From: Hirudinaria manillensis
Taxonomy: Eukaryota; Annelida; Clitellata; Hirudinida; Hirudinidae
Length of the DNA stretch: 64,000 nucleotides
Direction of reading: 5' to 3'
NCBI GenBank assembly: GCA_034509925.1
Contig: CM067534.1
Coordinates: 3,769,501-3,833,500, forward strand
In this document: piece by piece, positions 25,761 through 62,871 of the stretch
Layout of the letters: the number at the start of each line of letters is the position of its first letter
Numbering within the stretch: the first letter of the stretch is position 1
The notes under the pieces: model-generated
The model's input: only the letters and a program-made list of their open reading frames with translations
The model's database searches: none
What the model was told of the DNA's origin: nothing
Translations under genes and position numbers: made by a program

Positions 25761-27305
25761 TCAGGAGCATGGTGCTTTGCTAACAAAGAGGGAAGTCCAG
25801 TTTATAAGTGAAAAGACGATTAGTGTCCCAATGAATGATCCAATTTGTGATATTCCACCACACCACATCAGTCCTCTGCGACCTTGAGAATGAAGCATGG
25901 AAGTTAGGATAACTCTAGAATATGAGAAACAAGTTGATAGCACCAAGCCGGACACAACCTGAAATAAATTGATGTAAGATGATGATGGTGTCCTTTCTCT
26001 TTAAACTTGTTGTCTTATCAATATTATAGCCTAGTTAATATGATCATTTATTTATCATATCATTTAAGTTTACTTGCGGCTAACTTAATAAAATAAGCAT
26101 AGTGTCATGAAAGATGTTAGATTAACAGGAGAAACATTAGAAGAAAAATTTACCACGATGATTGAACCAGCCACATGATGCTGTAGGATTGGATTGGGGC
26201 TTTGCAGAGCCAAGGCAAATTGGTAGATAAATGCAAGCAGTCCTAGTAGAGAGACAATCATAACAATTCTTTCAGATTGTGAACGAATAAATAGAGTCGA
26301 AAGAGCTCCTATAGCTCCGAAGATAAATGACAGACGAACAGCTAGATTGAATACCATACTGCCATATGGCAGATACGTGTAAGGCTGGATAGATGGTAAA
26401 CAGCCATATCCTGCGGCTTGTATTACACCAAAAACAATTAAAAACGTCACATCCCAAAATGCAAATGTTTTTGTCAAAGACTTGTCTGTTTGGTTTATCG
26501 GATTATTGGAAGTTTTCTCCTTGCCTTTCTCTTTCACCATTTCTTCAATTATACCAAGATCAGTTCTCATAACTTGATGTCGACGTAATTTTGTGTAGTT
26601 TAAGTAGTAAAACGACACGAGACTAATCAATAACAAGCAACATATCACCATAAAATAAACCTTAACAGAAAATCTTGGTTGAGGAAACTGAGGGAGCAAT
26701 TTGTATTGTAATGTGCAATTGCTCGATAAACAAGATTGGTTCGCAAGTACCGTGACATTCAAACATGTCGGTTCTTCGCCCAGTCCTTGAGCTAATCCTA
26801 TCAGCCCAGGTATTATTCCGCTCAAACCATTTCCCAGATAATAGGCCGATATGTAGTGGGCCGGATATTGGGCCATATAGGGTAAGAAAACTAAAGATGA
26901 CAAGCAACTACACAGTCCACTGCAAGAAATCAAAATAAAGAGAGTAACGCTGTACTTCTTCCCTTTAACATCTGTCGGGTGATTCCAAAACAGTGACATT
27001 AGAAACATGGATACAATTTCGATGGAAATGATGGCAAAAGATAAAACGATGTCCTTGTTGCCATGATAGTTGGTTGATTTGCCGGATTGAATTTTGGAAA
27101 CGATAGAATATATCACAGGCCCGATGTTTGCCGCCTGAGTTGCAAAAGACATGTACGAGGGAAATTTCCATCCTTCTGGTACATAATTGATCATGAAGGG
27201 AATCTCAACTCTTAGTCCAACGACGTCTGCCCATGACGAAATCGAATACACTGCAATTAGAATAAATACCGGTAATGACAAATTTTCAAAGCTAAAGTAA
27301 GTCAT
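25761..27305 (-). CDS. SLC52A-type riboflavin transporter, copy A
   Basis: A plasma-membrane riboflavin (vitamin B2) transporter of the SLC52/RFVT family. Two exons, 26154-27305 and 25761-25958, join in phase 0 across a GTAAAT donor and a CAG acceptor to give 449 residues, as usual for the family. The N-terminus has the family signature (SSWADVVGLRVEIPFMI, then PEGWKFPSY). The centre has PAHYISAYYLGNGLSG followed by a Cys- and N-glycosylation-rich loop (CLNVTVLANQSCL), and about 11 hydrophobic segments are visible. A charged cytoplasmic loop at about 240-270 is rich in Lys/Glu. The last exon supplies the final two membrane helices and ends SKAPCS. It is the first of three tandem paralogues; a tract near 26751-26897 is almost identical to copy B. 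Confidence 0.93.
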
Positions 27306-30300
27306 TACAAATGTTGTAAGCGGTATTGAACGAAAGACTGTTTTCTCTCAGCCAAACTTTGTTTTAACCTTTTCGCTATTTAAGTGACCGCTCTGTCACC
27401 ATCTGTAACTGAAATTTATTAATGCTCTATCAATTTTAACTTACAAGACGCTCTGGGATGTTTTAATACACTACACAAACAATGTAAGCGTAAGCATTAC
27501 ATTTAAAAAAAAGATAATCAACAAGGTGTATCGATCCATTCCGTAATTGTGTACCTGCATAATGCATGTGGATAAGTAATAGAACAATGTAAGAAACAGT
27601 GTGAACAATCATTGCTCCTATCTTCTGTTTCTGATAATGTCGATGTTGGTGATATTATTCTTGCTTCGTTTCCTGGCTTACAAGTTTTGACTTAGGGTTT
27701 TGATTTGGTAATCATCATATTTTATTATCTAAACTTGAATATTATGGTAATTATTATGATTATAATATTACGTTAGGGGAACTGTACTAAATTGGTTTAC
27801 TGGTTATTTGTCAAATATGATGCAAAGGGTTATAAATAATAATACTGTCTTTCCAACATGATTCCAACATGAGTCATGATGTACCTCAAGGTTTTGTCTT
27901 AGGTTCACTTTTTTTCTCTTTTGTTTCCACTCAGCAAACCCATTGAGAATGGAATGACTCCTTTCAGGATGACTCCTTTCCAAAAGTGTCATTGGGTTCG
28001 TATTAAAAAATGCTCCCTTTGAATGAAAATGGTGACACGTTTGAGATAAATTACAATTAGGGATTATTGATTTTTACAGCCACAGACACATTTTTAAATT
28101 GAATGTCGATCAACAGTAGCGGAACAATGGCAAAACCACCTGTTAAATGATTGACGTCAATCGATTTTGCGATTTGATGAATTAGGAAGCATTTCGATGT
28201 AGGTTGAATTAAACTGGTTGTGTTTTGAGACATCAACGCCTCGGGTTGAAGCCAATTACTTTGGCAAGAAAGTGACCGTTCAATAAGAAACATTAGTTGA
28301 ATGGAACCTCTGTAGAGTTGTGTTCAACTTCTGGTATCAGGAAAATTTATCGCGGTGCCGTTGAACCACAATGTATCCAATGAAGATTTAAATTTCAACG
28401 TTTAGATTTCAAATTTAGACTTCAAATGGGGCGTTTAATGTAGCGCATCGATTGACATACATTGCTAGACATCAGCACACTTTATTTTCCCTTTTAAAAA
28501 TTACACTGCGATGAAATTATCCAGCAATTAATTTTTCGTGATTCACTTCTTCTAGCATAGCGCTAAGCTTCTCCTGAAATGAAGCCTCTTCAAAAGAAAT
28601 TGCCGCCTCTCCACCCTCAAGTACCAGGTGCAACACCGCCCAGATTGTTATAGTTTGCAAAAAGTTTCAATCGTTCAAAGCTTCGAAGTTTTCATCTTCG
28701 CCCTACTCCTCAGCTCCTTTCAAGATCTTAAAATCAATTTAACACACAGTGTTCTGACTTAATTTTTCACTTTTGCTTGATTGCCACGCCATAATTTTTC
28801 GGTATTGTTCCATCTTAAAAATAATGCCGTGACATTTACGAATTATGTTTGATGTCAAGGATTGAGTATTTTTCTGCATTTTCTGCATTGAGCATTTCTC
28901 TGAGAATTTTTCTCTTTATCTTTTGTAATTGCTCTCACCCGTGGATTCTCAAACTTCTTTACCAATTCAAAACTTTTCATTCTGTCTTCAAAATCTTTGA
29001 AAAAGATTTCATTAAAGTCAATAAATTTATACTAACGAATTATTTTAATGGATGTGTTAAATTATTTACATTTATATTGAATTTTATTTTTATTTTTATA
29101 ATTTACATTAGCTTATTTTATATTTTATTTATATTTATAACGAATTATTTAGAATTCATTAGTAAGCATATTCTCTGAGTATCTATGGCCTACTTATCTT
29201 GATAATTTCTATAAACAGTTTGTCAACTACGTGAGAGTTTAAAAGATGTGATCGATATCTGTCCAACAGGCAAGCCACACTTGTTCACAAGAAATTGGGT
29301 GTAGCAATGCGGTGTTATTCGACGAGAATTACAAATTGATTAATTCCTCTATTCGCATAATTAGATAATTCGATAATAAATGCATTTTTTTGTTTAATCT
29401 GCATGCAAAAAGTCCTTTTTGAAAGCAGCCTTTTGAATTTTCCGCTAGTTTGAACTGAACATGAGTGACTTAATGAGTAACTATGCAGTTGAAACTAAAA
29501 TTCTAACCTTAGTCAGAAAGTCAGTTCTTTATACCGTCACACATTGTATATACAGTCGTCGCATACATTTACGAAGTTCAATTTGTTTAATTTGCTATTT
29601 TTGTAACATCTTTGCATGTTAGATAGTCAAACCGCCTTGAATTTGTCGTGTTCTAAAAATAAGCATCTAGTAAATTATAATATATAAAAAATAATATATA
29701 GCGTACAATATAAATATTATGTAAATTATATATGAAATAGTACATAATATGTCTACATAAATTATATATAAATTAATAGTTACTACAGACATGTCATAAG
29801 TAACGCGAAGTAGGTGGGGTTTGTATATAGGAATCTTTGAGTAAATTATGTCGGACATGGCGATGAAGAACATTCTCTTTATGAAAAGGGCGATGCCTTA
29901 AGTGATATATTCAGGACATATAACTCAAACTAAAAATTTGGGTTACGATTGTGACAGATTCAAGACTAAAATTTCAGACAGAATATTAATTGCCAGAATC
30001 AATTGAACGTACGTACAATAAACGATAATGGTTTATATTATTATTTTGATTTATATTAGTTATTATTATTTTCCAAGATCTGAAAAAATTGTTCCCAAAC
30101 GAAATTTTCCCGGTTTTACTTTGTTTTCCAGAAAAAAAAATCGACAAAAGACTGTAAATACTTTTAATCCGAGTTAAAATATAAACTAAATTTTAAAATT
30201 ATAATTTACCCGACCGAACGTCATTATTGACTGTTGAGTCTATATTATGTAATATATAAATTTATATATAGAATTGCCAGCTATACAAATAAGTAAAACC

Positions 30301-30517
30301 ATGATATAATCAGTATCATCACAAGTTTGAGGGAAATAAAATATTTGGAGGTAAAATACAGAAAGTCAATAGGAAAGTCACCATCTTGATGTCCGCAACG
30401 CATGTCCACACTGTAAAAGAAATCTCTTTAATGATAACATCTACAACTATAGATTCTGTTTACGGGTCTTAATGAAACAAGGGCATATGAATCTCTATAA
30501 ATATATTTCCATTTCTG
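27306..30517. other. 3.2 kb spacer between SLC52A copies A and B
   Basis: AT-rich spacer containing the copy A promoter and copy B 3' UTR. It has no complete gene. At about 27870-27930 (+) is a short relic with the reverse-transcriptase signature DVPQGFVLGSLFF. The stretch 29650-29800 is an AT-rich low-complexity run. The minus-strand frame at 28057-28293 and the plus-strand frame at 28849-29178 (Phe/Ile-rich) have no recognisable similarity and are treated as chance. Confidence 0.55.
27866..27935 (+). mobile_element. Short non-LTR reverse transcriptase relic
   Basis: The translated plus strand reads DVPQGFVLGSLFFSF, closely resembling the conserved motif (G/D)VPQGS(V/I)LGPLLF of non-LTR retrotransposon reverse transcriptases. 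No flanking RT sequence is recognisable in frame, so this is at most a small, old fragment. Confidence 0.45.
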
Positions 30518-32046
30518 TTAACAAGGATCTTTGCTAACGAAAAGAGACGTCCAATTGATTAGTGCGAAAGCAGTTGTAGCTCCAAAGAACGACCCGGCTT
30601 GTAGCACCCCACCACACCACATCAAACCTCTTCGACCTCCGTAAGTATGAATCATGGATGTTAAAGCTATTCTGGAGATACCAATGAAAGTGTAGGCAAT
30701 CATTGTCGATAAGCCCTGAATAGGAAAACAATGAAAAAACGGAATTTAAATAATTCTATAGACCATTAAATCCATATTAAATTAAATCCATTAAATGAGA
30801 GGTTAACTGAAAGTTATTTTAAAACAATTTTTGATATTTTTAATAAGAATCACTTTAATTGTAAACTGACCACGAGTACATATCCAGATATATCATGCTG
30901 TAAAATTGGATGAGGACTTTGTAAACCTATGCCCAACAGATATACGAATCCAGATAATCCAAACAAACCAAAGCCTACAACGGCTTTTTCAGAAGGCCGT
31001 GGAGTGTACAAAGTCAGGATAGATACCAAACCTCCATATACATAAGAAAGACGGACCGTTATATTGAAAACTTTGTTTCCGTAAGGAAGACACGAGTAGG
31101 GAAGAATTGGAGGTAAAAATCCAAACAATGCGAACTGTGACAAGCCCAAAGCAGATAAATATAAGATCAATTCCGTGATGGAATATTCTTTTGTTGTGCA
31201 TTCAGAAACTTCCTCGTTTGTGGTCTGAGCAAGAGTATCACTTTTGTCCTGAAGTTGTCCTTCTGTCTTTGGGATAAGATCGTTTACAGGCACCTGATGA
31301 CGTCGCAGTCTCGTGTAGTTTAAGCAATAAAATGACATTAGACTTGCCATCAACAGACAACTTATTATCAGGAAATAAACTTGAACAGAAAATCTTGGAG
31401 GAGGAAACTCAGGGACCAACTTGTATCGTAATAACGAGTCTGTACAATTGCCCGTTAAGCAAGAATGGTTCGTAAGTATCGTGACATTCAAACATGTCGG
31501 TTCTTCGCCCAGTCCTTGAGCTAATCCTATCAGCCCAGGTATTATTCCGCTCAAACCATTTCCCAGATAATAGGCCGATATGTAGTGGGCCGGATATCGG
31601 GCCATATAGGGTAAGAAAACTAAAGAAGATAAGCAACTACATAATCCGCTGCAGGAAAGCAATATCATAAGAGCGATGCTATATTCTTTTTTACTCACGT
31701 GTGTTGAATGATTCCAAAAGATTGAAATTAACAACATGGATACTATTTCGATTGAAATGATGACAAACGACATAATGATGTCTTTTCTGGAATGCGAATC
31801 ATTGGCTTTTATTTTTCTCTGTCTTGAACAGACCTTTGAAACAATTGTGTAGAATAATGGTCCAACATTTGCTAGCTGAGTAACTAGAGAAACATATGAT
31901 GAAAATTTCCATCCTTCAGGCACGAAATTGATCATCAAGGGCGTCTCAACTCTAACTCCAGCAACATCAATCCAAGACGAAGACGTATAAAGTGCTAGTA
32001 GAACGAAGGCAAAGTAAGATACTTTATTAGATTTTGTGCAGGCCAT
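30518..32046 (-). CDS. SLC52A-type riboflavin transporter, copy B
   Basis: The second tandem riboflavin transporter. Exons 30871-32046 and 30518-30715 join in phase 0 (donor GTCAGT, acceptor CAG), giving about 457 residues. Signature regions are SSWIDVAGVRVETPLMI, PEGWKFSSY, PAHYISAYYLGNGLSGIIPG and a glycosylated loop with CLNVTILTNHSCL. The terminal exon has the same length (198 bp) and splice position as in copy A and ends VSKDPC. The central cytoplasmic loop (LIPKTEGQLQDKSDTLAQTT and beyond) is unlike copies A and C. The GTCAGT donor is weaker than in the other copies. Function is assigned from family; substrate preference within SLC52 cannot be read from sequence. Confidence 0.93.
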
Positions 32047-33229
32047 TTTTAAGTATTATTGTAGGCAATACTTATTAGTATATTATCGGGATAACGTTCT
32101 TAGCTCTTCCTTAGTACATTTATTGGAGTTATAGGATATTGAAGAGAAATTTTTTACTTTAAAACAACTCTTCTTCGTTACGACGTCGACATGTTGAAAC
32201 TTAAAAAGCATTCTGCATTTCTCTATTAGGGGGGTTATGTGTACCTAAAATGATTGTCAAAAACAGGTGTGGATCTTTTAATCGATATTTAAAATATGTC
32301 AAGCAAGCATTATCGTCTACATGAAAAAAACAATTAATTATAAAGCCTTATAAAAAAAAATACTTGACTGAAATTAAACAGTCAAAATATCAAATTTTAA
32401 TTTCTCAAAATTTTACATGAATTGACATTAATTCACGTTGAACTATTTTGACATTTAAATGTGTTAGCAATGGTGTGGACATCCATTAAAAGGCTAAGAC
32501 GAGAAATGTTTGTTACACGCAAACTTCTTTTTTCAAACTTATACAAACCCACGTCTCCAGTACTTGAAACACGCATACCTGATTCTGCACAAACACATTA
32601 CTATTATTTTTTTTTATGTTTGTCTTGATAGTTTTTGGCTGGCTAATGACACCAAATAAAACTTATATACAGAATTGACTGATATATATGCAATATTGTT
32701 TTATTAAAATAATCTTCACGTAATTATAAAGTTTTTTACTAGAAGTAAAATTATAAAATGAAAAAAAAAAATAATAATTATAATAATGGTATACTAACAA
32801 ATCTTAAAACTCTTAAAGTCTTTAAACCATGTTGATTTAATATCAGATACTTTACCTCATTCTATATTACCCTGCATTATTTACTTAATCTTCTCTGTTT
32901 GACTTGTCTAATTCTAATTTCGATTGGTTAAGTATGGGCTCGTCATTGTTAGAGTGCACCTTGGCATCACCTTGGATATTGGATATTGGCACTGTAAATT
33001 TTTGCTTGAAATAAATAAATAATATTCAATTTATTACATTTTACATATCTGTAATATTTTTCGAATTGAATGAACAAATTGGACGGCTCACAGTTCCTTT
33101 TTTTTTTCAAATCATTTAAATTATATTCGGTATAGAGCAACCTCAAATAAAATTACAGGATAAAATCGCAGATAATGGATAATTATTTTATAATACTGTA
33201 ATTCAAAATTCAAGCTAGGAAGGAACTTC
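32047..33229. other. 1.2 kb spacer between SLC52A copies B and C
   Basis: Low-complexity AT-rich sequence with no coding potential seen. It contains homopolymer runs (for example A-runs at about 32761-32770 and T-runs at about 33100-33108). It holds the copy B promoter and copy C 3' UTR. Confidence 0.5.
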
Positions 33230-35266
33230 TTAAGAACAAGGTGCCTTTGAAACGTAAATTGACGTCCAGTTGATGAGTATAAAGGCAGTCAAAGATCCGA
33301 GGAATACTCCACCCTGTGTCATTACCCCACTCCAAAGGAGCGCTTTTCGACCACCAAGTAATTGGAGATTTGAGGTCAAAATAACTCTGGAGAAGGAAAG
33401 TGTTCCTGACATGACCATGGCTGATAAAACCTACAATCGGATAAATAAATAAATAAATTTCGTTATCCTCCAAATTTACGCTTTCAAACGATCTTCGAAT
33501 GTTTACATGTCACTTAGAATTTGCTCTGAATATCATTAAAATTTTGATAGTACACACAAAAACGAAAAAAACAATTTTAATTAAAATGACATAAAACAGA
33601 CTCCCATGTGGCAGTCTTAAAAGTTAGCCCTTTTGAAGTGACATCAAAACAAATATGATTTTCATCAAGTGACCTTGCACTTCGAACCATTACATGAACG
33701 AGGTGATGTAACCACGGTTCCACGAATTGTATAGAATTTTGACATCTATTATCTACGCTTAAATATTTCAAATGGCATTTTTTACAAATAAATATTTCAA
33801 TCACAGATGTCGTTCGCCAAGAATAATTATATTATATTGTTATCACTAACATCTAGACATTCTAGATATCATAATAATGATAATAACAATAATAATAATG
33901 ATAATAATAATAATAATTCCATACGTTACCCAAGAATGGTTAAGCACTTGAATTAATATTAAAGCTAAGCTAAACACCTAATAATCTATAAACTGGTCTC
34001 CTCTTTCTTAAACATAATTGCACTTAATTAATCATTAAGTAAGTATAAATAAAATAAATGAGCGACAAAAGGCAAACATACCACAAGAACTCCTCCTATT
34101 GTTTCGTCCTGTAAGATTGGACTCGGACTCTGCAGTGCCAAAACAAATTGATAGACGAAGGATGATAATCCAGCTATTGTTACTCCAAGGAGAATTTTCT
34201 CTGAGGGTCGTGGGAGAAACATGGTCACTAACGAGCCTAATGCTGAGCACATAAATGAAAGTCGAATGGCCAAATTAAATACATTGCCGCCATAAGGAAG
34301 ACTCGAAAAAGGTTGAATTGAAGGGAAAAATCCAAACATCACTGCACTCAAAATGCCCAATACTGCTAGATAAAAAACATATTTGCATCCGGAACTTTCT
34401 TTTTTTAAGGCAGGCTCGATAGATTCCACAAAATGTTTGCCGTCTTTCAAAAATTCGGCAGAATTTTCATTTTCTTGAGCAACGTGTTTAGTCTGACTTG
34501 AGGAATTTCTATTAACTTGATGTCGACGCAAGCTCGTATAGTTTAAACAATAAAATGATATCAGACTTGCCACCAATAAGCAGGTTATAATCAGAAAATA
34601 ATTCTGAACAGAAAATCTCGGAGGGGCGTATTGAGGAACCAATTTGTATTGTAATGATGTTTCTGAACAGTAACTCGTCGCACAGGAGTTGTTCGTAAAC
34701 ACCGTGACGTTCAAGCATGTGGGATTTCCTCCCAAACCTTGAGCAAGTCCTATCAATCCAGGCAGGAATCCTCCTAAACCATTTCCAAGATAGTAAGCCG
34801 AAATGTAGTGTGCTGGAAAACGAGCCATGTAAGGCAAGTAAACCAAATTTGATAAAGAACTACATGTTCCGCTGAAGAACAGCAAAATCATGAGGGCTAT
34901 GCTGTAATCTTTTCCTCCGAAAGAGGTTGTGTAATTCCAGAAAAACGAAATCAGTACCAGTGAAACGATTTCAATCAAAATGATTAAGAAAGATAAAACG
35001 ATGTCCTTCGTTCGACCGTCATTTTCTTCTGACTTATTTTTTCCTTGACAAAGTCTGCAAATGACCAAATACAAAGCCGGCCCAACGATTGTTACAAGAT
35101 TTATCAAAGAAAAGTATGAAGGAAGATTCCATCCCTCCGGCAACACGTTTATCATGAAGGGTACCTCAACTCTGACACTGATGACATCAGCCCACGACGA
35201 AATGGAGAAAATTGCTATCAAAAATAATACCGGCAATGATAACTCCTTCAAATTAAGGTTTGTCAT
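33230..35266 (-). CDS. SLC52A-type riboflavin transporter, copy C
   Basis: The third tandem riboflavin transporter. Exons 34082-35266 and 33230-33430 join in phase 0 (donor GTATGT, acceptor TAG), giving 461 residues. The N-terminal signature (SSWADVISVRVEVPFMI, PEGWNLPSY), the PAHYISAYYLGNGLGG block and the cysteine-rich glycosylated loop (CLNVTVFTNNSC) are present. It is more diverged from A and B than they are from each other in the central block. The last exon ends VSKAPCS. The intron, about 650 bp, is the longest of the three and holds an (AAT/GAT)n run at about 33869-33917. This copy is probably the oldest branch of the local family. Confidence 0.93.
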
Positions 35267-37116
35267 TTCAATTACTTACGGTTTATTATCGCTTTAATAG
35301 CAGTTAAACTTAAATCACAGTTAAAAAACTTGTATTGGAAACGCCGATTCAGAAATCTTGAAACAAATGTTATCTCGCAATGTATATACATGTATATATA
35401 GTACTGTCAAATGCGATCCCTTTTACAGGAACTTAGGGGGGCCTGGCTCACTTGGCCTACAGTGTCAAATGAATAGTGATGACTTTAGACCAAATAGCAG
35501 ATGAACGCGATCAGATAAATCAGATATATTCATTTTCAATAGCTTTATTTTTGTAACTTAATTATTCTGAACTTAAATCAATCGGTAAAATATTTGATTA
35601 AGAATGGCACTTCCTCTATTGAAACAGATGGGTTCTTTATTCAGAGAAAAGATTGAATGATTATAAATGACTTTATTCATTACCAATCGACTTGTAAATG
35701 ATCAAAATCACAATTTTTCTGCGAAATCGCATTTTGAGAGTTTAAACTAATTAGAATTTTTTTTGGAACTTAGACTATGGTTATAAGTTTCAAGGAAATA
35801 ATTCTTTCAATCAAAATGTTTGATCTATTATAATTGAAGGACAATAGTTGACATCTTACCTGTGCAAAAGTTTGGCCCATTCTTCTATAGAACTTCGATA
35901 TGGTTTTATGGTTTTGCATATAAAACTTGTATTCATTCAATCTTTTGAATTGCAGTTGACTTAATAAAGTTGTAAAGTTAACAAACTTCTACAGGCGGAT
36001 CCGAACGACGCACTTTGAATTCGCAGAGTGAATTTCTACTCCACATACATTTGAAAGTCTGCAATCACTGCTACAAATTGCACAAGGATCTGCTGAAATC
36101 CGTACAAATCTCTTAGATATCGCAATGTTTTTCTTACCACTAGCCAAATAATTTGCATTATTACCAAAGTAAATCACCAGACTAAGTTAACTTAATTCAT
36201 CTTTAAGCCACCTTTCCGCTTCTCTTTTAGTCACAAATGCTAAAAAGTACCAAAACTTGATTACACTAATTCAGATGTAATTAAAGATAAGAATGCCAGT
36301 ACTTATTTGAATAAGATTCTTATTCGGAGGCTAAAAAGAAATTTTGGCCCCCAGCCACCTTCCTTCTTTGGATTATGTCCCGGCTACTATCCCCCTCGCT
36401 AAGCCTTTTGGGAGAATGACGCGCATCTATTGCTTTTGGCTATTTAAAAAATGAATTTCGATTGAAACTATGTGGAATCCATTCTCAAGTAATTTATAGA
36501 AAGAATCTTTACAATTACTAAAAGAGTGAAACACGAATGAAATTAAGAATGGCGTCAACAGTTCTTAAAGCAATTGTAAAATCAGACTGAAGTCACGGCC
36601 AGTCACAAGAAATCAACTTTCGATTAAAGATGCTAATGATTGTTGTATATTTATGTTTTAGAGACAACTTTCCTCGAATCGAGATGCTGATCAAAAAAAA
36701 TCTGGGAATCATCAGTCTTGTTTGATATGACGCCTCACGTGCATATGTATAACCTTCATAACGATATTACTAATATTAGAATATATTACGATATTGCTTT
36801 TAGACTACTTTCAACTTGCTTTCAATTTACTTTATATTGTCCTTATCTTTGGTTTTATTGTGATGTAAGTGACTTGTGTAGAAGAAACACGATTTAATGC
36901 TTTAAAATAATATATGTCGTTTCTTATAAAACGGCTTCAGCCCATAAAATGTTGTCGAAAATTATAGCAAGTTGATTTTTAGAATTTTAGTACTATTTTT
37001 TTTTGGAACCAAAATGTAAATATCGTAAATAACTCAAATATTTCTACTGAATATCGGCTCTTGTCAGCAACATAAATATTTCTCTAAAATCGTCTGTCTG
37101 TACTAGACGTCTGATC
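35267..37116. other. Intergenic between SLC52A copy C and THUMPD1
   Basis: Divergent promoter region for SLC52A copy C (-) and THUMPD1 (+). A GC-richer island at about 36338-36415 (GGCCCCCAGCCACC...) may be a piece of a repeat. A Cys-rich minus-strand frame of 62 codons at 35989-36177 has six Cys in 31 residues, but no splice or family support. Nothing else was recognised. Confidence 0.5.
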
Positions 37117-48064: not shown

Positions 48065-49640
48065 ATCATTTTTTTTTTTTGACGGTTATGAATTCGTTTT
48101 ATTCAAAAAAAAAAAAAAATTTTTGAAATATACACAGATCATGCCCCAAAAAAATCACAAATTCATCAATGGTTTATCCCAAGGGAATTTAATTCCCGTC
48201 TAGGGGATAGGCTAATTCATATTGACAAAGTTGAAGGGGCGTATGAAAGGGTCTTTACATAAATGATAAACTGAGATTAGGATGACAAAACTTCTAAACT
48301 TCTAAACACGATGGGAACAACGAACACCTGATAATGAGAGATGTAGATTAACCAGGGAGGTGCTGTGACAGAAGACCAAGGATAACGAAAGGAATGATGA
48401 ATGATGAAGTGATGAGGAAATGTGCGGTTCAACAACTGGAGAGAATGTGTTTTTTAAGAAGGGATTTAAATAGAGAGGAACTGTTTAAAGAAGTAAGGGA
48501 TAATGGCAGAGAAGAGAACAAAAATGGACCTTTACAACATATGGAGAATTTTTTGAAGGTGGTACGGGAAAATTCAGATCTAAATTGATTGGATGATCTA
48601 AGATTGTAAGAATGGATATCTGAGGATTTGGAAAGCATATTACCAAAGGCAGAAGGCAGCAAGTTATATTCATAATTATACATGAAGAGGCAAGTTTGGA
48701 ATTTATTGATCTGATGAATATTCAAAAAACCGTTTGAAATGAAGAAGTCCTTTGTGTGAGCACGTGGATGGAGGCGAAACATAATCCTGATTATTCTTTT
48801 TTGAAGAGTGAGTAGATGGGTGAGTTTAGAGGGATAGCTGGATGCCCAAGTTATATTACAATAGATGAGATAGGGATAGATTAATGAATAGTACAGCATA
48901 GTAAGAATTTTTCTATCAACAAATGAACTGATTTTTGATATGACTCCAATATTTTTTGAAATTTTGGTGGCAACATAATTGATGTGGAAAGACCAGTTTA
49001 ATTTCTCATCGATAATAAACATTAGTGTCATCCGCAAATAACAAAAATGAAAGCAAAGATGAGGAATTGTGTAGGTCGTTAATATAAATGATAAATAGTA
49101 AAGGACCAAGAATAGAACCTTGAGGAACCCCACAAGTTACGTCACTGAACAACGATCTAGACCCATTAAATTCTGTCAATTGAATAATTCCACTCGACGA
49201 TTTCAAAAATTTTAGAGAAATATGGCAGGATTGAGATAGGTCTGTAATTGCAGATCTTGTTCAAATCACCAGATTTATGCAATGGAATCACTTTGGCCAA
49301 TTTTAAGTCATCAGGAACATTCCCCGTTAACAAAGAACAATTAATTAGAGAGCTGAGGGTGTCCGAGATCAATGAGATGAATTCACCAGCAATGCAAGGA
49401 TCAACACCATCAAGACCACAGCTATGGGAGGTCTTCAATTCTTTGACTATTTGAATGATCTCATCTGCCGAAACAGGGAAAAAAAAAACATTGTGGGGGT
49501 GGAAGATCTCGTGAGGAATTTATCGAAGGACTTGGATGAAGGAATGTTAGTATCATCATTTGTCTCTCTTCATAAAGCTATAACTAACATTCTAGTTAAA
49601 GCGAAAAGCTGAATATCTGCTGTCAAAGTTTGCCAATAAC
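48065..49640 (-). mobile_element. Decayed non-LTR retrotransposon with RT fragments
   Basis: Minus-strand reading gives reverse-transcriptase blocks in the correct order. They are VSADEIIQIVKELKTSHSCG (about 49430-49480), LDGVDP, LKLAKVIPLHKSGD, NYRPISILPYFSKIFE (to about 49200), CGVPQGSILGPLLFIIYIND and LLFADDTNVY (about 49010-49140), then DEKLNWSFHINYVATKISK and the C-terminal YSLIYPYLIYCNITWAS and LQKRIIRIMFR (48430-49000). The segment that should carry the catalytic FxDLSKAFDT motif is missing at about 49195, and a second gap follows the FADD box at about 49010. A T-run on the plus strand at 48068-48081 may be the 3' poly(A) tail. It is jockey/CR1-like, but the clade cannot be fixed by eye. 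It is non-functional. Confidence 0.88.
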
Positions 49641-51935: not shown

Positions 51936-53150
51936 TCAAATGCTTGATGTTTCTGACTCAAGCAGTATTTTGCAACCAGATGATGTTGGCACGTTACTAG
52001 TACAGTTGCAACGAGTGTTGTCGCCACAACAGTCGTAACAACTCGAGACAACATATTTGAGAGGTAGATAAAAACATAGACATGGAAGACATGGCAAAAA
52101 TAAGGTTAAAATTGTCCAGCGGGACATGCAGTTTGGTTGTGAACAACAAGCGCAAGGCTTCTCCGAGCAGTCCTCCTCACCGTTGCTATCCTTCAAACAG
52201 TGATAAAATATCGGCTTGACCAAACACATGCAGCTCAAGCCGTCCACCAGGGCGTCTTTGCCGGGCACGTTGGAGAATTTGCGGGAAGACTTTTTGAGAC
52301 AATCCTTGCATCGGCACTTGCCGCACTTGCGGCAGACGATGGAGTTCGAACACTCGAACGACTTGGGAGCGAGAGAGGATCGGATCGTCAGAGGCGTCGA
52401 CGGAGAACTGTCTTCGCCGCTCGATCCCAATCCGGAGGTCGGTTTGCTTTTGCCGGTCACCAGCCTTCTGAGCCTTTGAAGCATGCCATACGATTTCTTT
52501 TCGCTTGTTATGATGACGGAAGTGACCCGAGAACGGGGAGACAAAGTCGTCAGGTGGCGAGCACTGCTCAGACTATTGCTGTTCGAAACGCTCTGGCATT
52601 TATTTCTCGACTTGGTTCCCGGACTTTCGACGTACTCGTTGGAAGAGGTCGTGAACTTTCCTGCCAAGCCGTCTATGGTCAGAAATTCGGACCTCTGCCG
52701 AGCTTCTGAAAGCGGCCACCTCGCCAGCGAGACCACCTGCGTGCCGACGTCCGTTCTCTCGGAAGTCAGGGGAATAAATTTGATCTGACCTCGGGACGAG
52801 AACAACACGACGTGGCTGCTGTTGTTTACGCTACTCAGAGTAGGGGCGGACCTGGTCAAGGTCTTGGACCGAGTTCGAACCCTGAGTGGGTCGACGACGA
52901 GAGGCACGAAACCGGACGTCGGATCGGCATTGCCAGGATGATTTGGCGGGGGAGGCGGAGGCTTGGTCGTCAGTGAAAGACTGCGTTTCAAGGGGGCCCT
53001 CGGAGGAATGGGCGGACCGAGTTCTAAGTTGGAGCGAGTCGATAATACTTGTTCGTTCTTTGGTCTCAGATGATTCTTAATCCTCGATGGCAGTGGGGGA
53101 GCCGTCTGCCTTGACGTGAACGCGTCGTCCTTGCCACGAGGAAGTACCAT
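51936..53150 (-). CDS. spry: Sprouty (feedback inhibitor of RTK-Ras-MAPK signalling)
   Basis: Sprouty proteins are membrane-targeted antagonists of receptor tyrosine kinase signalling. The 404-residue coding region is a single exon; an acceptor (TTTCAG) just upstream at about 53164 shows that a spliced 5' UTR precedes ATG 53150. The N-terminal half has Pro-rich patches (KPPPPPPNHP, residues 63-72). It also has the SSNEYVESPG motif with Tyr173, equivalent to the Cbl-binding NEYTEGP motif. The C-terminal cysteine-rich SPR domain (about 267-393) contains CRKCGKCRCKDC, SCMCLVKPIFYHC, CSEKPCACCSQPNC and a hydrophobic stretch (FLPCLPCLCFYLPL), followed by CYDCC and CNC. The CxxxCLC segment normally present between the first two blocks is missing. 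The N-terminal half is longer than in human SPRY2. GC content is high relative to the flanks. Confidence 0.94.
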   Translation of the reverse strand: MVLPRGKDDAFTSRQTAPPLPSRIKNHLRPKNEQVLSTRSNLELGPPIPPRAPLKRSLSLTTKPPPPPPNHPGNADPTSGFVPLVVDPLRVRTRSKTLTRSAPTLSSVNNSSHVVLFSSRGQIKFIPLTSERTDVGTQVVSLARWPLSEARQRSEFLTIDGLAGKFTTSSNEYVESPGTKSRNKCQSVSNSNSLSSARHLTTLSPRSRVTSVIITSEKKSYGMLQRLRRLVTGKSKPTSGLGSSGEDSSPSTPLTIRSSLAPKSFECSNSIVCRKCGKCRCKDCLKKSSRKFSNVPGKDALVDGLSCMCLVKPIFYHCLKDSNGEEDCSEKPCACCSQPNCMSRWTILTLFLPCLPCLCFYLPLKYVVSSCYDCCGDNTRCNCTSNVPTSSGCKILLESETSSI

Positions 53151-55475
53151 TGCTTCTGTATTTCTGAAACGTCATTGGCATCAACTCATTATTTGTTTGT
53201 AATTTTTGCATTTTACTGCCCCCTTTTGAAATGATGAATAAATCACCAGAGCAATATTGCAGTAAGCCACATCATTGAGCCTGGCCACAGCTGTTGTCTG
53301 AGATAACATTAGAATTGTTCATTGCATTAGAATATTTAATGTTATTCATACATGTTTGTCAGCCATGACTCATTTCACATTGCAGATCTAGCAAACATTA
53401 ATACATCCAAGCAGTTTTAGATGAAAAGAAACAATCAGGAAAAAGACATAGCAGTAGCAATAAAAGCTTTAAAAGCAGCCTTCCATTGTTGTTAATATTT
53501 CGTAAAGCAACATAATTTTACGACAGCTAGTCTGGAAAATAAACATTGAATATGTAATGAATATACGACTAAGAATTAGTACTTACTCTGGTTATCTTAG
53601 CCGATCAAACGTCGTCACAGCCACCGAACAATACTCTAGTCGTCGTCGAAGTCATAGCCATTGTCTCCAGGAGTTTTAAAGAGTTTATCCTAGCTTTAAA
53701 TTTACAGTAGAACCTGAATTATTTCCACAACTAAAGTTACCCGCGCCTATTCCTGAAAAACCATTGAGGAGAAAGCATCGAGCAATTTTATGAATGAAAA
53801 TCTCTTCGACGGCTGAGTAAGCCTGCAGAGCTGCAAAGCTGTAGCGTGTGAGTCCATATAAACACATCCCTCCCACACACGGCGTACACTCAATATTCTT
53901 TCTTTACTTTAAATCCTGAAAAATGGCGTAGTTTAAAATTTTTTTATATTTATTTATATCTCGTCCATTGTCTTTGGTGGAAAAGTGACATCTCCTCCGA
54001 TAGATCACGGTTCACGAGGATTTTGGACTGCTACGAGTAACACAATCTTCAGCATCGCCATCATCGCCATCATCGTACGTCTCATCGTATCAATTGCGTC
54101 GGTGTTAAGCTGCACAGAGCTTGTGCATCATAATCGCTTTGCTTGTTCATGTGGGGAAGTTCAGTTAAAATTTCCACAATCGCGTGGACAACGGCAACAA
54201 ACGAAATACAGACAACGATCGGGACTCGGATCGGCACTTCCGGATCCGTCAGAAACTAAGCGCCGTCCTCACCAAGGTGGAAGATAGATTCACTTGCGAC
54301 GTATTTCGTCTTAGAAACAAGAGTCTGATTCAGTGTCAGGGATGACTGAGACTGTCTTTATTTGCTGGATGGATTGGATGGATGAAGAGATGCGTTTAAA
54401 GAAATAAAGAGTCTTGCAAATAGGATGCAGAAGTGTATGGCGCAATAGCTGTTGTTTCTTCTTTTCATGCTGCTGCAGTACAGTTTTCTGAAGGCAAGAT
54501 GGATTCAATGGCTGTTACGTAAAAAAAAAGTTTCGCTTCTTATCAGTCGGTTTTTTTCAAGATAAGGCCAGATAATTTCTTCTCGGCGAACGGCAAAAGC
54601 GAGTGCAAACATTAATGGGCGTTCGAATGTAGTTCTAAGGTTGAATAATCTTTCGACTTGCTATCTTAATGTAATTAGAGTTCCTCTTTGGCACAGGAAA
54701 TGAATTCCTAAAGAAAGGAAGCACGCGTGATGCACGTAGGTGGTGGAGCAGCTTTAACACTCGAGTCCATCCTTATTCTGCTTCTCTGTTTCTAAAATAA
54801 TGATTTATGTTCTGACTAATGAGTTTTTTTTTTATTGTGAGGAACATAGAATCTTTCTACGATAAAGAAACGTAATTTCGACGACAACGACAACAACAAA
54901 AAATCTTCCACAAATCCGTCCAAATTAAAAGTGAACTTTTGACCCAATAAATTAATGACAGATAAGCAGTTGGTCTTAACAATTCGTTGAGGTTTTAATC
55001 GTCACAACAGAGATATTCGGAGATGCACGACCCGCAATCTTCTGTTAATTTAAATTAATTCATCACCGAATATCGTCATCCATCAACTTCTTTTCACCGA
55101 CAAGTGAATATTTAATTAAACTGAAATTATTCGATTACATTCCTTAAATATTAAAATCCTTAATTTTAATTAACCGAATAAAATAAAATATGAAAATTGT
55201 AATATAAATTCTGCTCCAACGGAAGAAAAAGAAGCAAGAATGCAGAAAAAAGAAATGATTTAGAATGATGTAATAATATACATTCAATTTTTTGCTCTGC
55301 GCAGGTCTCACTTTTATCCCGTGAAGCATGTAAAGCACAAACCAAAAAGAAATATACATTAATTTTTTTTAAATATCCAATCTCATTATTTATTAAACTT
55401 ATTACTGGATGAGTCTTTGAAGGAGCAGAGAAAGTTTATCAATATTTGAGCGAATAAAAACAATAATTTTAACAT

Positions 55476-57524: not shown

Positions 57525-60500
57525 ATGTCTTTCTTCGATATCCTCAGCGCCGGCCAAGAGAGGGGCCATACCTTGTTCAGACTGCTATGCTTGGAGTTAT
57601 TCGTGTTGAGTTTGTGCAACATGCTAAGGAGGTCGATTATGAGGAGGTGGCCAACTTTAGCGTGGTTGGCAGAGGTTGTTGCCACCCTGGAAACTGGATT
57701 CATCTTCTACCTCGAGGTAAATTTCTTTGGGAAGAAAATAAGTTGACGAACATTTTTTGAAAATGCAAACATCTTAAAAAGAAAAAAAAAACAACACATG
57801 AATAATGAGAATCAAAAAAAAGATCATTTATCGTTTCTTATCATTGAAGTTTGATTTCATGAATATCATAAGAAATATTTATAGTGGGTTTCACTAGCCT
57901 AACCTGGTACCAAGAGCAGCATATAACTCATAAATTACTCCCAAATTAGTCAGAAATTTACATTCTAATATTTAATTATTAATTAAATTATAAATTCAAT
58001 TCAATTCAATTAATTTAATGATCCACGTTACTTTTATTTTTCCCAGGGTATCGTATTCAACATAGCTACACTAAGCACGTTCATTACCGTGTTGTTCATC
58101 AATGCATCCTTCATCTTCCTCATCAACACGCCCGGACATTTCTCGAGACGACACGATTGCGATGAAGACGACGAATTCGACTCCAACAAAATCACGAAAT
58201 GCCTGAAAAGGCGTCTCATGGACTTCTTGAACAGGATTATTGTGACCATTTTGTCCATTCCGCTAATGCAGCATCTCGTTCTATTGGCTCTAAGTCCGGA
58301 ATTTCAAAAGAATGAATTGTCTTGCTTGTTAATGTGCGATCACACAGTCAGCTATTCTTTCTTTCTATTCCACTCGGTCGCTGAGTTCATCCTCACCTTC
58401 ATTTTGGAGTGGCTCTATGCCAGGACGAGATATCTCGAGGCAGTTGCAAGGGATTCTGCAGACGATCTCGTCAAAATATTTTACGTTTCGACAATTTCGT
58501 ATTTAGGTTTGTATTTCCAATACAAGGAGTGACTCGACAATGGATGTGTAAATGTATAATATATCGGTTGGTTACTGATATCATAACTTTAACCGCCATG
58601 AATATTGTTATTGTCATCGTGGTTAGTGACCATTACTGTTTATAAAGGCGACGATGATTAATATTAATGTTATTGAAACCGCAGGCTTCCCGTATGCTTC
58701 CCTGCATCTCAACCCCTTCACAGCCTACTTGATGGCAGATGTCTGCGATTGGAATGAAATTCCACTTCATTTGTTCATGTATTCCGTTTGTCCACTGTTA
58801 GGAACGCTGGCAGTCTGTTTTATGCCATTTTATAAAGAACACTTGACCGAAAGTGCGGCTTATAAAGAATTCAAGTAAGCATTTATTATTATTGGTTGAA
58901 GTAAATGAATTACTATTAGGCAACTGTTAATTACTAATTAAATAATTACTATTAAAAAACTATTTGCATTTAAAGGAGCAAGCCAGGTGCCCATTCGGAC
59001 GATTATTGGTACACGGATGCGTGCGGGGATTCTTCCGGAGTTCCTATCAACAACAATTCAAAGCAAAATCACCACGTATCGAACTGGAATTCGAAGTTTT
59101 TCGGAAACACGGACATTTGTAACTTCACGAGTTCAGAATCTCTGGAGAGCGACGACAGCTTCAAGGGCGACAACATCAACAACTGCAAGCAAAGCGACTT
59201 CTACGATGAAGGTCATTCGACCGCCAGTGACAATTCCTTCTCCCCACGTCCAAATGGTTATGCTTCCAAGTTGATCAGGCACTTTTCCGATACGAGCCTT
59301 TCAGATAATAAAAGAAAACATAAAGGAACATCCAGCAAGTGTCATCACAAACACAAAGACGACTTCCGTTTACCAAGATGTTCCCATCATTGCCACAAAT
59401 TTAAAGATGGCAAAAATGGCGGAAGCCACAAAAACTTCTGCAAGGCTAACCGGGTCGATGAAAAAGCGTCCGATGACAGCTGTGACAGCATCTACAACAG
59501 ATTGATGAAAGTCAAACAGCAACACAACAGTAAAAAGCAACACAAACACGATTTGAGAAAGCATCCTAGTGCACGTACGGATGGATTCTGCAATTGCAAC
59601 GATAGCTACAAAGCTTACCATGACAAAACTTATGCATCGACTTCGAATGACTTTTTCCAGAATTCTAAGATCGACAAGCCAGGACAATGGTACGGAAAAG
59701 ACGAGAATGAAAACAAGAACTGGCAATACCCTCACAAGAACATGAAACCCGATTTGGAAGCTTTACAAGAAAAATGTTTAAGGAAGAGACCTGATTACAG
59801 GGAGAACCCTCAAGACCAAAGCAAGCATGCTCGCAACTGTTACGTGAAGAACCTGCTCAGCAACGAATTTCCACCTCATCACAAACAGTCAAGTAAGCAG
59901 TTCAACAGGAATGGCGAGAAGCCAAATATCACTGCAAGCTTCAAGAATTTTAATGATAACTTTGAGGCTCAAGATTTCCGTCACTTACGAGGTATAGGAA
60001 AAGAAAACGTTCAACCACAATATAAGCATCGACATACGAATGAGTTCAACAGTAGGGAAGATTTCCAAGCATTGGACAATACCTGCACTAAACAGTGTTC
60101 TACATCCCACTGCAAATCTTACCATAAGCCTCCAAATCAAGGCTTTGACAGGAGAGCCAACGATCATGTCAAGCACGGAAGGTGTCACAGAACAGATGGC
60201 AGACACCTACCTCTACCTTATCACATGGATTTAGATCTCGACAAGAACCCAATAAGTCCAAACAAGAGGATGTTAAGGCCAGTTGAAAATCATTCATTAG
60301 ATGGACTCGACAACGAGAGAAAGCTTCGCCACTGCAGGCACAAGACGTATGCAAACCAGACTCAGAATGCCAAAGATTCTGCAGGCCACAAACGATGCCT
60401 AACTCCGATAGTTTCTTCTACCACTTACACAGTTCATCGTTCGCCCTTGGATCAAAGTCACTACGACAGCCCCATCGATAAAGGAGTTTCGTATTCTCCT

Positions 60501-60908
60501 TACAAAAAGACTTCGAATAGAACACTGCATCCGAGAAATTTCATGCAGGAGGATAGTATGACGAGACAGAATGAGATCTTCAATTATCCCAACATTGAAC
60601 ATCGTATGAAGAACAAGAGGAATGACTTTGTAAGGGAGTTCCAAGCAAAGGAGAACCTTCTGATGTCTCGCCGAGCTGAAGACATTCCAAAGATTAGAAA
60701 AAAATTCAGTTACAACGACCTACGCGGAAAACCTCAGGACTGCAAAGAGCGTTGCTGTGCAAAAGACAGTTCAGAGAAGTCGAGCGACAGTTTTGAACGC
60801 CTAGAAGCCACCAAACTTGTCAGAATCCCCAAGAAACATTCCAGAAATTGCTGGAAACGAATGAGATGTTCGCGATTGTACGACATATCGGAGTCTGATG
60901 AGAGCTGA
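57525..60908 (+). CDS. AQP11-type unorthodox aquaporin with a ~640-residue C-terminal tail
   Basis: Four exons, 57525-57716, 58047-58506, 58685-58874 and 58976-60908, join with consistent phases to give 924 residues. Residues 1-281 match AQP11-type superaquaporins in layout: TM1, RWPTLAWLAEVVATLET (like the HAFVLEFLATFQL segment), then a first re-entrant motif NTP at 91-93 instead of NPC/NPA. The middle has VTILSIPLMQHLVLLALS and SVAEFILTFIL; the second motif is NPF at 227-229. Cys238, eleven residues after Asn227, is the cysteine that marks the AQP11/12 group. An acidic insert (DCDEDDEFDS) follows the first motif. The last exon encodes about 643 hydrophilic residues rich in Lys, His, Asn, Ser, Arg and Asp. 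Cysteines there sit in basic or His surroundings (KCHHKHK, CSHHCHKF, KQCSTSHCKSYHK, ERCCAKD). The first in-frame ATG is used. A poly(A) signal AATAAA lies at 60944. Transport activity is uncertain. Subfamily assignment is good; the tail resembles nothing I recognise. Confidence 0.85.
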
Positions 60909-62871
60909 CCTAATTTAAATTTCTTATGAAAAGGTTAATATTAAATAAATAATTGCTAAAATTCAATCGCTATTCGCAAAACATCTGAAATGTTATTTTA
61001 GAGAATGTTCAAGAGAAACAAAAATCACTCTCAGTTTGTGTGGCCACTAAGTTTCTAGTTCCATTTAAAATGATCAACCAGGACTTTCGCTAAAAAGATT
61101 CCTTGCTTAAAGAAGCAGTGCGAGATCTTTGTAATTTTGGTCGCTGTTGGATTTTAGCCCCCATAGTTTTGATGCAGTAATATTAATGATTTAATGATGA
61201 AATTAATATTAATGGGGACTATATGGTTGTCAGTTAATTCATTACATAGTTAGCTAATGTTCCAAGAACGACTTTAAGGCTACCCTACTTGAATTCATTT
61301 CAATCCAGCCAATAGCACTGAACCTCTAAATACTAAACAAAGGAATTTCGTCGATGAATATCAATTTTCCATTTGGTTTGTTAAAAATTTAAAATTTATC
61401 CGAGTTCAAAAGCTTCAAACAAAGGCGAAGACTTTAAAGCCCTCGTAATTTACTTGAATAAATTTAGCCTGCTGTTGACCTTGTGAGAGTTTCCTTGACG
61501 TGTATATTTAGTCCGAGAATATTCATGTATTCAGATCATTCATTACAACCACGAAAGATTACACTTCCTTATTCTATGCTGTTGTGCCATAAACAATTAA
61601 GTCTACTTGAAATTCAAGGTTGTCTGAGCTATTTCAAGCAATATCGATCAAAAACATGTAGGAAAAACAAAATAATAAATAACTTCAACAATAAAATACA
61701 TAAATATCACCGTTGAAAGAAATAAGAGTCAGAACAACAGGGAACCAGTGGAATATACTCTAGGGTTGTCCATAGGAAAACGAAATCTTTATTCGCAATT
61801 GGAATTTTAACTGGAACACTTTTTATCATTATAAGCAAATAATTTTCTGCTGCAAAAATTTTGACCGATTACGAAAATAAATAAATATATAAAAATAAAT
61901 AAATAAATATTTCATGTAATAGATTTTATAATAGAATTAATATAAAGTAGATTTGAAAAATCAATTTCAAGTCGTAATCCCATTTCCGAACTATTTGATA
62001 CTCAAACGATATTTTAATAAAACCTTTCATCTGCCTTTCATTTTTATGAGGAGTTCTAATCATCTTATTTTGAAATGGACAACACCCATGACAAGAAAGG
62101 GATGAACAAATCTTTCAAGCGTCTTTATTCTGACGAAATATTTGACAAATTCCATGGAATCATGACAAGCCTTCCCGCAAAAATATTTTTTTTTTGCTTT
62201 GAATAAAAAAGAACATTATCAAAAAAGATCGAGGCAGAGAAAGTCGTGACAAATGTAAACAATTGTTGTCTTTTTAACAGAATCGCATTGTAATTTTACT
62301 CGCTTTAAGATACGTGTGATTATGTATGTGATTAGAATCAGTCAAAATTCATTGAATAATGCGTTGGTCTTAGTGATATTACAATATTAAGATGTAAAGT
62401 CATGATTCTCCATAAAATGGTTAACGATGAAAGATTTTCTGTTAATTAAGTTAGTTTGTACCATAATTGGTTATTGTTTTTTCCCCTAAAACATTATCGT
62501 GTGCCACAATAATTGTAAATAAAGATATTAATAAGTTATTATAATTCGTACATATTTGTCATTTGTCGTGAAGCGTAAATCAAATAGCAAAGTTACAGAA
62601 ACTTCAGGCACAAGACTGTTTAAACAATATATAAGTGAAACTGTTTATTTTTTTTGTACTTATAAGTTGCAAAACGCCAAAAAACATTTCCACTTTATGT
62701 GGAACAAAAATGGAGACACTGGAAACTTTAACCCAGGGGAACTTTCAATGAGTTTTCATGATGCGAAGATACAATGAATATATCTAAAAGCAGCAAATGC
62801 TGTTTTACAATAAACCCCTGCATTTAATAGAAACGTGTAAATTAGGAAGTGTTTTATTAACCAAGGCACGA

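Follow-up and report, generated by a model that had tools for sequence, protein, structure and literature searches.

A divergent superaquaporin-like gene of the leech Hirudinaria manillensis with a predicted 643-residue C-terminal tail

A gene of the leech Hirudinaria manillensis appears to combine a divergent aquaporin of the intracellular, AQP11/12 type with a long hydrophilic tail. The reading that we tentatively favour, with a probability of about 0.46, is that it encodes a single-copy superaquaporin whose last exon supplies a disordered, net-basic cytosolic tail of 643 residues that would serve in trafficking or scaffolding. Established in this reading are a gene model whose exons join in consistent phase, a divergent core that carries the cysteine signature, the composition of the tail and the fact that no second copy was found. 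The gene lies at 57525-60908 on the plus strand of the window, the whole stretch of 64,000 nucleotides that was analysed (contig CM067534.1, bases 3769501-3833500), which belongs to contig 9 of the 23 contigs (148,429,096 bases) of the genome searched.

Four exons, 2775 bases in all, give one frame of 924 residues, laid out as a membrane part of 281 residues and then 643 hydrophilic residues. The three introns are all GT-AG, with cumulative phases of 0, 1 and 2. The original prediction of a 281-residue channel and a 643-residue tail in a single frame of phase-consistent exons thus stands. The features of the gene are as follows.

57525-57716, plus strand: exon 1, residues 1-64, with the ATG start at 57525
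58047-58506, plus strand: exon 2, residues 65-218, codon 218 being split with exon 3
58685-58874, plus strand: exon 3, to residue 281, codon 281 (Lys) being split with exon 4
58875-58975, plus strand: intron 3, 101 bp, which starts GTAAGC
58937 and 58951, plus strand: ATTAAA in intron 3, a possible polyadenylation signal
58976-60908, plus strand: exon 4, 1933 bp, tail residues 282-924, with TGA at 60906-60908
59340-59396, plus strand: His/Cys patch CHHKHKDDFRLPRCSHHCH, residues 403-421, which fits no named zinc finger and only a loosely defined motif with two [CH] pairs
60944-60949, plus strand: AATAAA, a candidate polyadenylation signal that starts 36 bases 3' of the stop codon

Elsewhere in the window three similar open frames stand in tandem on the minus strand (26085-27347, 30850-32055 and 34028-35275), which we take to be riboflavin transporter (SLC52)-like; the trio, 26085-35275, represents a local expansion. 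A Cys-rich open frame at 51936-53171 (minus strand), upstream of the aquaporin and on the opposite strand, presumably resembles a Sprouty/Spred domain, and two open frames at 48429-49519 (minus strand) are, by their look, presumably reverse transcriptase pieces of a LINE-type element. In the genome as a whole the antistasin family gave at least 63 matches (150 of 162 candidates scored); among the matches listed 50 are on contig 2, and 19 of those listed there lie within 1.72-1.78 Mb.

The alternative that survives best, although we consider it unlikely, is that two products or two genes have been joined in the model. The aquaporin would then end at residue 281, by way of the TAA in intron 3 and intronic polyadenylation, and exon 4 would be an alternative last exon or another gene. 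Read-through into intron 3 gives AAG TAA immediately, since an in-frame TAA (58876-58878) lies inside the donor, so that retention of the intron leaves a family-sized protein of 281 residues; the two ATTAAA hexamers follow. However, the donor itself is a GTAAG, and the frame of exon 4 opens at 58974, two bases 5' of the acceptor, in the matching phase. The acceptor is weak, with pyrimidines at 9 of 20 positions (that of intron 2 is also poor, at 10 of 20), and short tails are usual in this genome as well as in the salmon louse, where the Aqp12-like proteins are given as 262-263 residues in all in the accessible part of the source (PMC4539701). Against a separate gene, the first Met within exon 4 is residue 458, so that 176 open codons precede any ATG (P ~3e-5 or 2e-6, depending on the base composition used), and the tail is found nowhere else in the genome. 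The nearest alternative acceptor in phase, 58979, costs one residue, and the out-of-phase acceptors 58983 and 58987 give total proteins of 377 and 325 residues. Because retention of intron 3 brings in the TAA and the intron holds ATTAAA, a short form is possible, and it is quite possible that a short isoform coexists with the long one.

Several properties of exon 4 bear on whether it is coding. The window has a G+C content of 35%, and a run of 643 stop-free codons has P ~5e-17 by the base composition of the exon and 1.5e-21 by that of the window; the other five reading frames of the tail contain 18 to 42 stops each. Third-position G+C is 0.497 in the tail, whereas the introns have 26.4% and the flanks 30-32%; at four-fold sites the tail has a G+C content of 39%, the core one of 56% and the training set one of 42%. 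The training set of a codon-usage model was made up of eight further open frames of the window, presumed to be genes. By this model synonymous codons in the tail favour coding over non-coding sequence by 57 bits, where the expectation is 46 (sd 12) for coding and -44 (sd 11) for non-coding sequence, and none of 1000 non-coding simulations reaches 57 bits. The wrong frames of the tail score from 9 to 56 bits, the best being a reverse frame (55.6 vs 57.1 for the true frame), and the core scores higher in a reverse frame (38.6) than in the true frame (23.4). Since reverse frames come close to the true one or beat it, the score mirrors base content more than frame; by this measure the codon use of the tail is coding-like, with an imperfect control.

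The composition of the tail, taken over residues 281-924, includes Lys 10.9%, Ser 10.4%, Asn 9.2%, Asp 8.5%, Arg 7.3%, His 6.4% and Cys 3.6%, and the tail is probably unstructured, as predicted by two methods. In a charge-hydropathy comparison all 594 of its 50-residue windows fall on the disordered side, and AlphaFold2 run without an alignment gives a mean pLDDT of 40.6, with 535 of the 643 residues under 50 and some helices, the longest of which covers tail residues 539-573; such calls from a single sequence are weak evidence of disorder. A repeat or mobile element was considered and rejected: the genome holds no second copy of the tail at E up to 0.1, and when the tail was cut into six blocks and these were compared, the best match (score 45) was reached by 174 of 300 shuffles, in line with the earlier statement that the tail is not a simple repeat. 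A known domain was rejected as well, as a Pfam search up to E 10 gave nothing and the two PDB matches (E 0.59 and 1.6) are taken as chance. The suggestion that the tail makes contact with RNA or the cytoskeleton found no protein-family match in Pfam. Among sorting and phosphorylation motifs, YxxPhi (3 vs 3.4 expected) and SxxD/E (8 vs 8.6) are at chance and RxxS/T is below it (3 vs 6.7).

It is rather improbable that the tail is a neutral or near-neutral feature, an old extension which arose through loss of a stop codon and persists as a disordered appendage of little function. The lack of a family or paralogue match and of a significant PDB match would fit such an origin, as would motif counts that are mostly at chance and the lack of self-repeats, but 643 stop-free codons at 35% G+C speak for a frame that has long been maintained. 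The third-position G+C, well above that of introns and flanks, argues in the same direction, the four-fold sites alone (0.39) less strongly.

The membrane core was read in terms of the following segments.

Residues ~15-36, exon 1: extra N-terminal hydrophobic segment
Exon 1: helix 1, with AWLAEVVAT at residues 46-54
Exon 2: helix 2, helix 3, loop C, helix 4 and the start of helix 5
Residues 91-93, exon 2: probable first box NTP, placed by eye from its distance to helix 1
Residues ~97-123, exon 2: charged stretch at the place of the first half-helix
Exon 3: the rest of helix 5, the second box and helix 6
58711-58746, plus strand: second NPA-like box NPF (residues 227-229, in register with the second NPA) and signature C238

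The core appears, by its sequence, to be a very divergent aquaporin of the intracellular AQP11/12 (superaquaporin) kind. It has no Pfam match at E up to 10, it lies below the Pfam cut-off for PF00230 (a scan of the genome with that family lists 28 matches, none of them on contig 9), and its PDB search was empty. A profile of 78 prokaryotic aquaporins (80 fetched) and four leech aquaporin fragments gives it 7.9 bits, where the best of 994 scored local shuffles (1000 made) has 7.6; the margin is slim and E is only 0.1 in the set of 1002 sequences. When human AQP11 and part of AQP12 are added to the profile the score rises to 16.8 bits, as against 9.1 for the best of 987 scored shuffles, a figure that depends on provisional letters for the human sequences. 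In a further control run the core's profile score exceeded those of 298 scored local shuffles (300 made) and 150 scored full shuffles (200 made), of the reversed core, and of three other polytopic frames of the window and their reversals. The profile alignment is confined to the second half of the core, where helix 4, helix 5, the second box and helix 6 match collinearly with NP and PLLG in place. In pairwise alignment with the provisional human AQP11, residues 211-264 align without gaps; in exon 1, E50, A53 and T54 align with their counterparts. The core's score was equalled by 25 of 500 shuffles against the provisional AQP11 alone and by 7 of 500 against the provisional AQP12 alone, and a genome search with the provisional AQP11 as query gave no match, this gene included. 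Helix 5 is not covered by any hydropathy window above 1.3, and structure prediction for exon 2 alone has a mean pLDDT of 53.9, which is, like that of the tail, too low for a comparison of folds.

A Cys nine residues beyond the second NPA box is the superaquaporin signature (PMC8700629), and C238 stands nine residues past NPF. Nine of the 281 core residues are Cys, which puts the chance of finding one at a single fixed place at ~3%. Loop C has two more, C157 and C161, the first of which aligns with a Cys of the provisional AQP11; for AQP12 the accessible part of one report mentions a disulfide between loops C and E and a mercury-sensitive Cys past the second box (PMC13344155). The earlier assignment to an AQP11-type channel is supported by this signature and by the way helices 4-6 align, both to the profile and pairwise. 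It is very unlikely that the core is an unrelated polytopic protein whose second half resembles an aquaporin by chance; the Pfam miss, the unaligned first half and the slim margin over shuffles are set against a collinear match of helices 4-6 with NP, PLLG and the Cys at +9 in place, and against the ungapped alignment of residues 211-264.

The original prediction dwelt on the tail, and did not mention that the channel half is unusual too, with its Pfam miss, NPF and probable NTP. NTP is followed by GHF and then by SRRHDCDEDDEFDSNK instead of a hydrophobic half-helix. The pairwise alignment does not pair NTP with the first box of the provisional AQP11, so that its assignment rests on spacing and on the eye. 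Non-canonical boxes are described as common among AQP12 proteins in the accessible literature. The probable NTP together with the charged stretch in place of the half-helix makes ordinary water conduction doubtful; we infer that the pore may be impaired.

The tail holds 41 His and 23 Cys, and their distribution was compared with residue shuffles in about 28 tests, for which P is uncorrected. The firmest excess is of His adjoining Lys or Arg (29 vs 14.7, P 0.0002). Basic/His clusters of the form BBxB are in mild excess (16 vs 9.2, P 0.016), as are Cys-Lys/Arg pairs within 2 residues (25 vs 16.6 expected, P 0.019), and a post hoc motif of Cys beside two basic or His residues occurs 12 times vs 4.1 expected (P 0.003). 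The claim that Cys keeps to His or basic neighbours comes down to a mild excess: 13 Cys have an adjacent Lys, Arg or His vs 9.9 expected (P 0.13) and 18 have one within 2 residues vs 15.5 (P 0.19), but within 3 or 4 residues there is no excess over shuffles. Binding of a metal (zinc, copper or haem iron, the animal being a blood feeder) by the His/Cys/Lys-rich tail, which had been suggested on these grounds, is the least probable alternative and a weak one: the patch at residues 403-421, the number of His and Cys and a raw count of nine overlapping matches to the loose motif with two [CH] pairs are in keeping with it, whereas Cys-His clustering is marginal (6 pairs within 1 residue vs 2.9 expected, P 0.07; P 0.06-0.07 within 1-2; 19 within 4 vs 11.7, P 0.02), a pattern search found no C2H2, CCHC or CCCH in the tail, Cys-Cys pairs are at chance level and there is no known domain.

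In the favoured reading, a superaquaporin with a disordered tail, the core would reside for the most part in an internal membrane, like other superaquaporins, and would conduct water poorly or not at all, given the NTP and the charged stretch. The tail comes after helix 6 and is therefore cytosolic by aquaporin topology. It would do the distinctive work of the protein by holding partners or acidic surfaces, may set the destination of the channel, by analogy with the C-terminus of vertebrate AQP12, and modification may tune it, as it does the tail of Drosophila Big brain. On these analogies we propose that the disordered tail decides trafficking or recruits partners. A bolder version, which we regard as doubtful, is that a superaquaporin that has lost the first half of its pore became the membrane anchor of a giant disordered scaffold, and so a second, independent origin of the Big brain type, on the intracellular branch and in leeches. 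A tail more than twice as long as the channel, beside an apparently damaged first half-pore, would if true be a natural test of non-conducting function, and long-tailed, possibly non-conducting aquaporins would have arisen more than once.

Orthodox aquaporins of the same genome give a baseline for the length of the C-terminus. In eight distinct ones the open frame, followed as far as its stop, continues for 61-81 residues from the start of helix 6, and later introns may change these ends; they come from 14 loci scanned, of which one (L022) duplicated three of them while five yielded no row. By eye, a ninth shows about 67 residues after that point, and the long-tailed protein has about 675. At another locus (L019, C3:5084600-5086400, reverse strand) an aquaporin-like frame has about 100 mostly hydrophilic residues ahead of helix 1. 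It was rejected as a second superaquaporin, having FNSS at the place of the first box and no second box in reverse-strand frames of at least 55 residues.

The leech core is like those of superaquaporins (AQP11, AQP12, invertebrate Aqp12-like proteins and annelid AQP11-like proteins such as Alitta AsucAQPd) in its strong divergence from orthodox aquaporins, its Cys nine residues past the second box and its degenerate boxes, and it shares with the provisional AQP11 an extra hydrophobic segment ahead of the E..AT helix. Unlike the salmon louse Aqp12-like proteins it is 924 residues long. The boxes of superaquaporins are, in the accessible parts of the sources, CPY/NPV in salmon louse (PMC4539701) and CPY/NPM in barnacle; the leech differs in having NTP (probable)/NPF and a charged stretch that replaces the first half-helix. 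The salmon louse Aqp12-like channels are reported to remain inside oocytes (PMC4539701, accessible part). Superaquaporins are poorly understood, and the cytosolic C-terminus of vertebrate AQP12 is reported to decide its destination by steering it to internal vesicles (PMC13344155, accessible part). The targeting heptapeptide described there is reported in the same part to be lacking in invertebrates, and the leech protein does not have it either.

AQP11-like sequences have been named in five annelid families, and the authors point out that their similarity search may miss fast-evolving members (PMC8700629). The main texts of three leech genome papers, that of H. manillensis included (PMC10671345), do not name aquaporin. 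Publications on long-tailed aquaporins, invertebrate superaquaporins and unorthodox aquaporins of Helobdella describe no such protein in their accessible main text. A literature search on AQP11 in Hirudinea gave no paper, and searches on leech aquaporins brought up nothing about this gene. To our knowledge no leech family is among the five annelid families with AQP11-like sequences.

The nearest parallel to the long tail is Big brain (Bib), as originally proposed, with C-terminal tails of ~300-329 residues. In the accessible sources long-tailed Big brain is known from Drosophila, barnacle, salmon louse and Daphnia. The C-terminus has about 300 residues in barnacle, tyrosine phosphorylation of the tail modulates the Drosophila protein, and that of salmon louse has a C-terminus of 329 residues and stands at the cell surface, with no water transport found (PMC4539701, accessible part). 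The leech tail of 643 residues fits the arthropod pattern of a C-terminus that exceeds the membrane domain, but it is about twice as long and is rich in Lys, Ser, Asn and Asp, with much His. Bib has a core of the classical branch, and a long N-terminus in the louse, whereas the leech core is of superaquaporin type; the signature Cys, like the lack of a Pfam match, suggests a place away from the classical branch. The view that the architecture is undescribed is not contradicted by the accessible literature on such proteins, but long-tailed aquaporins are known as a kind from Big brain, and the leech protein is therefore a variant of that kind and not a new one.
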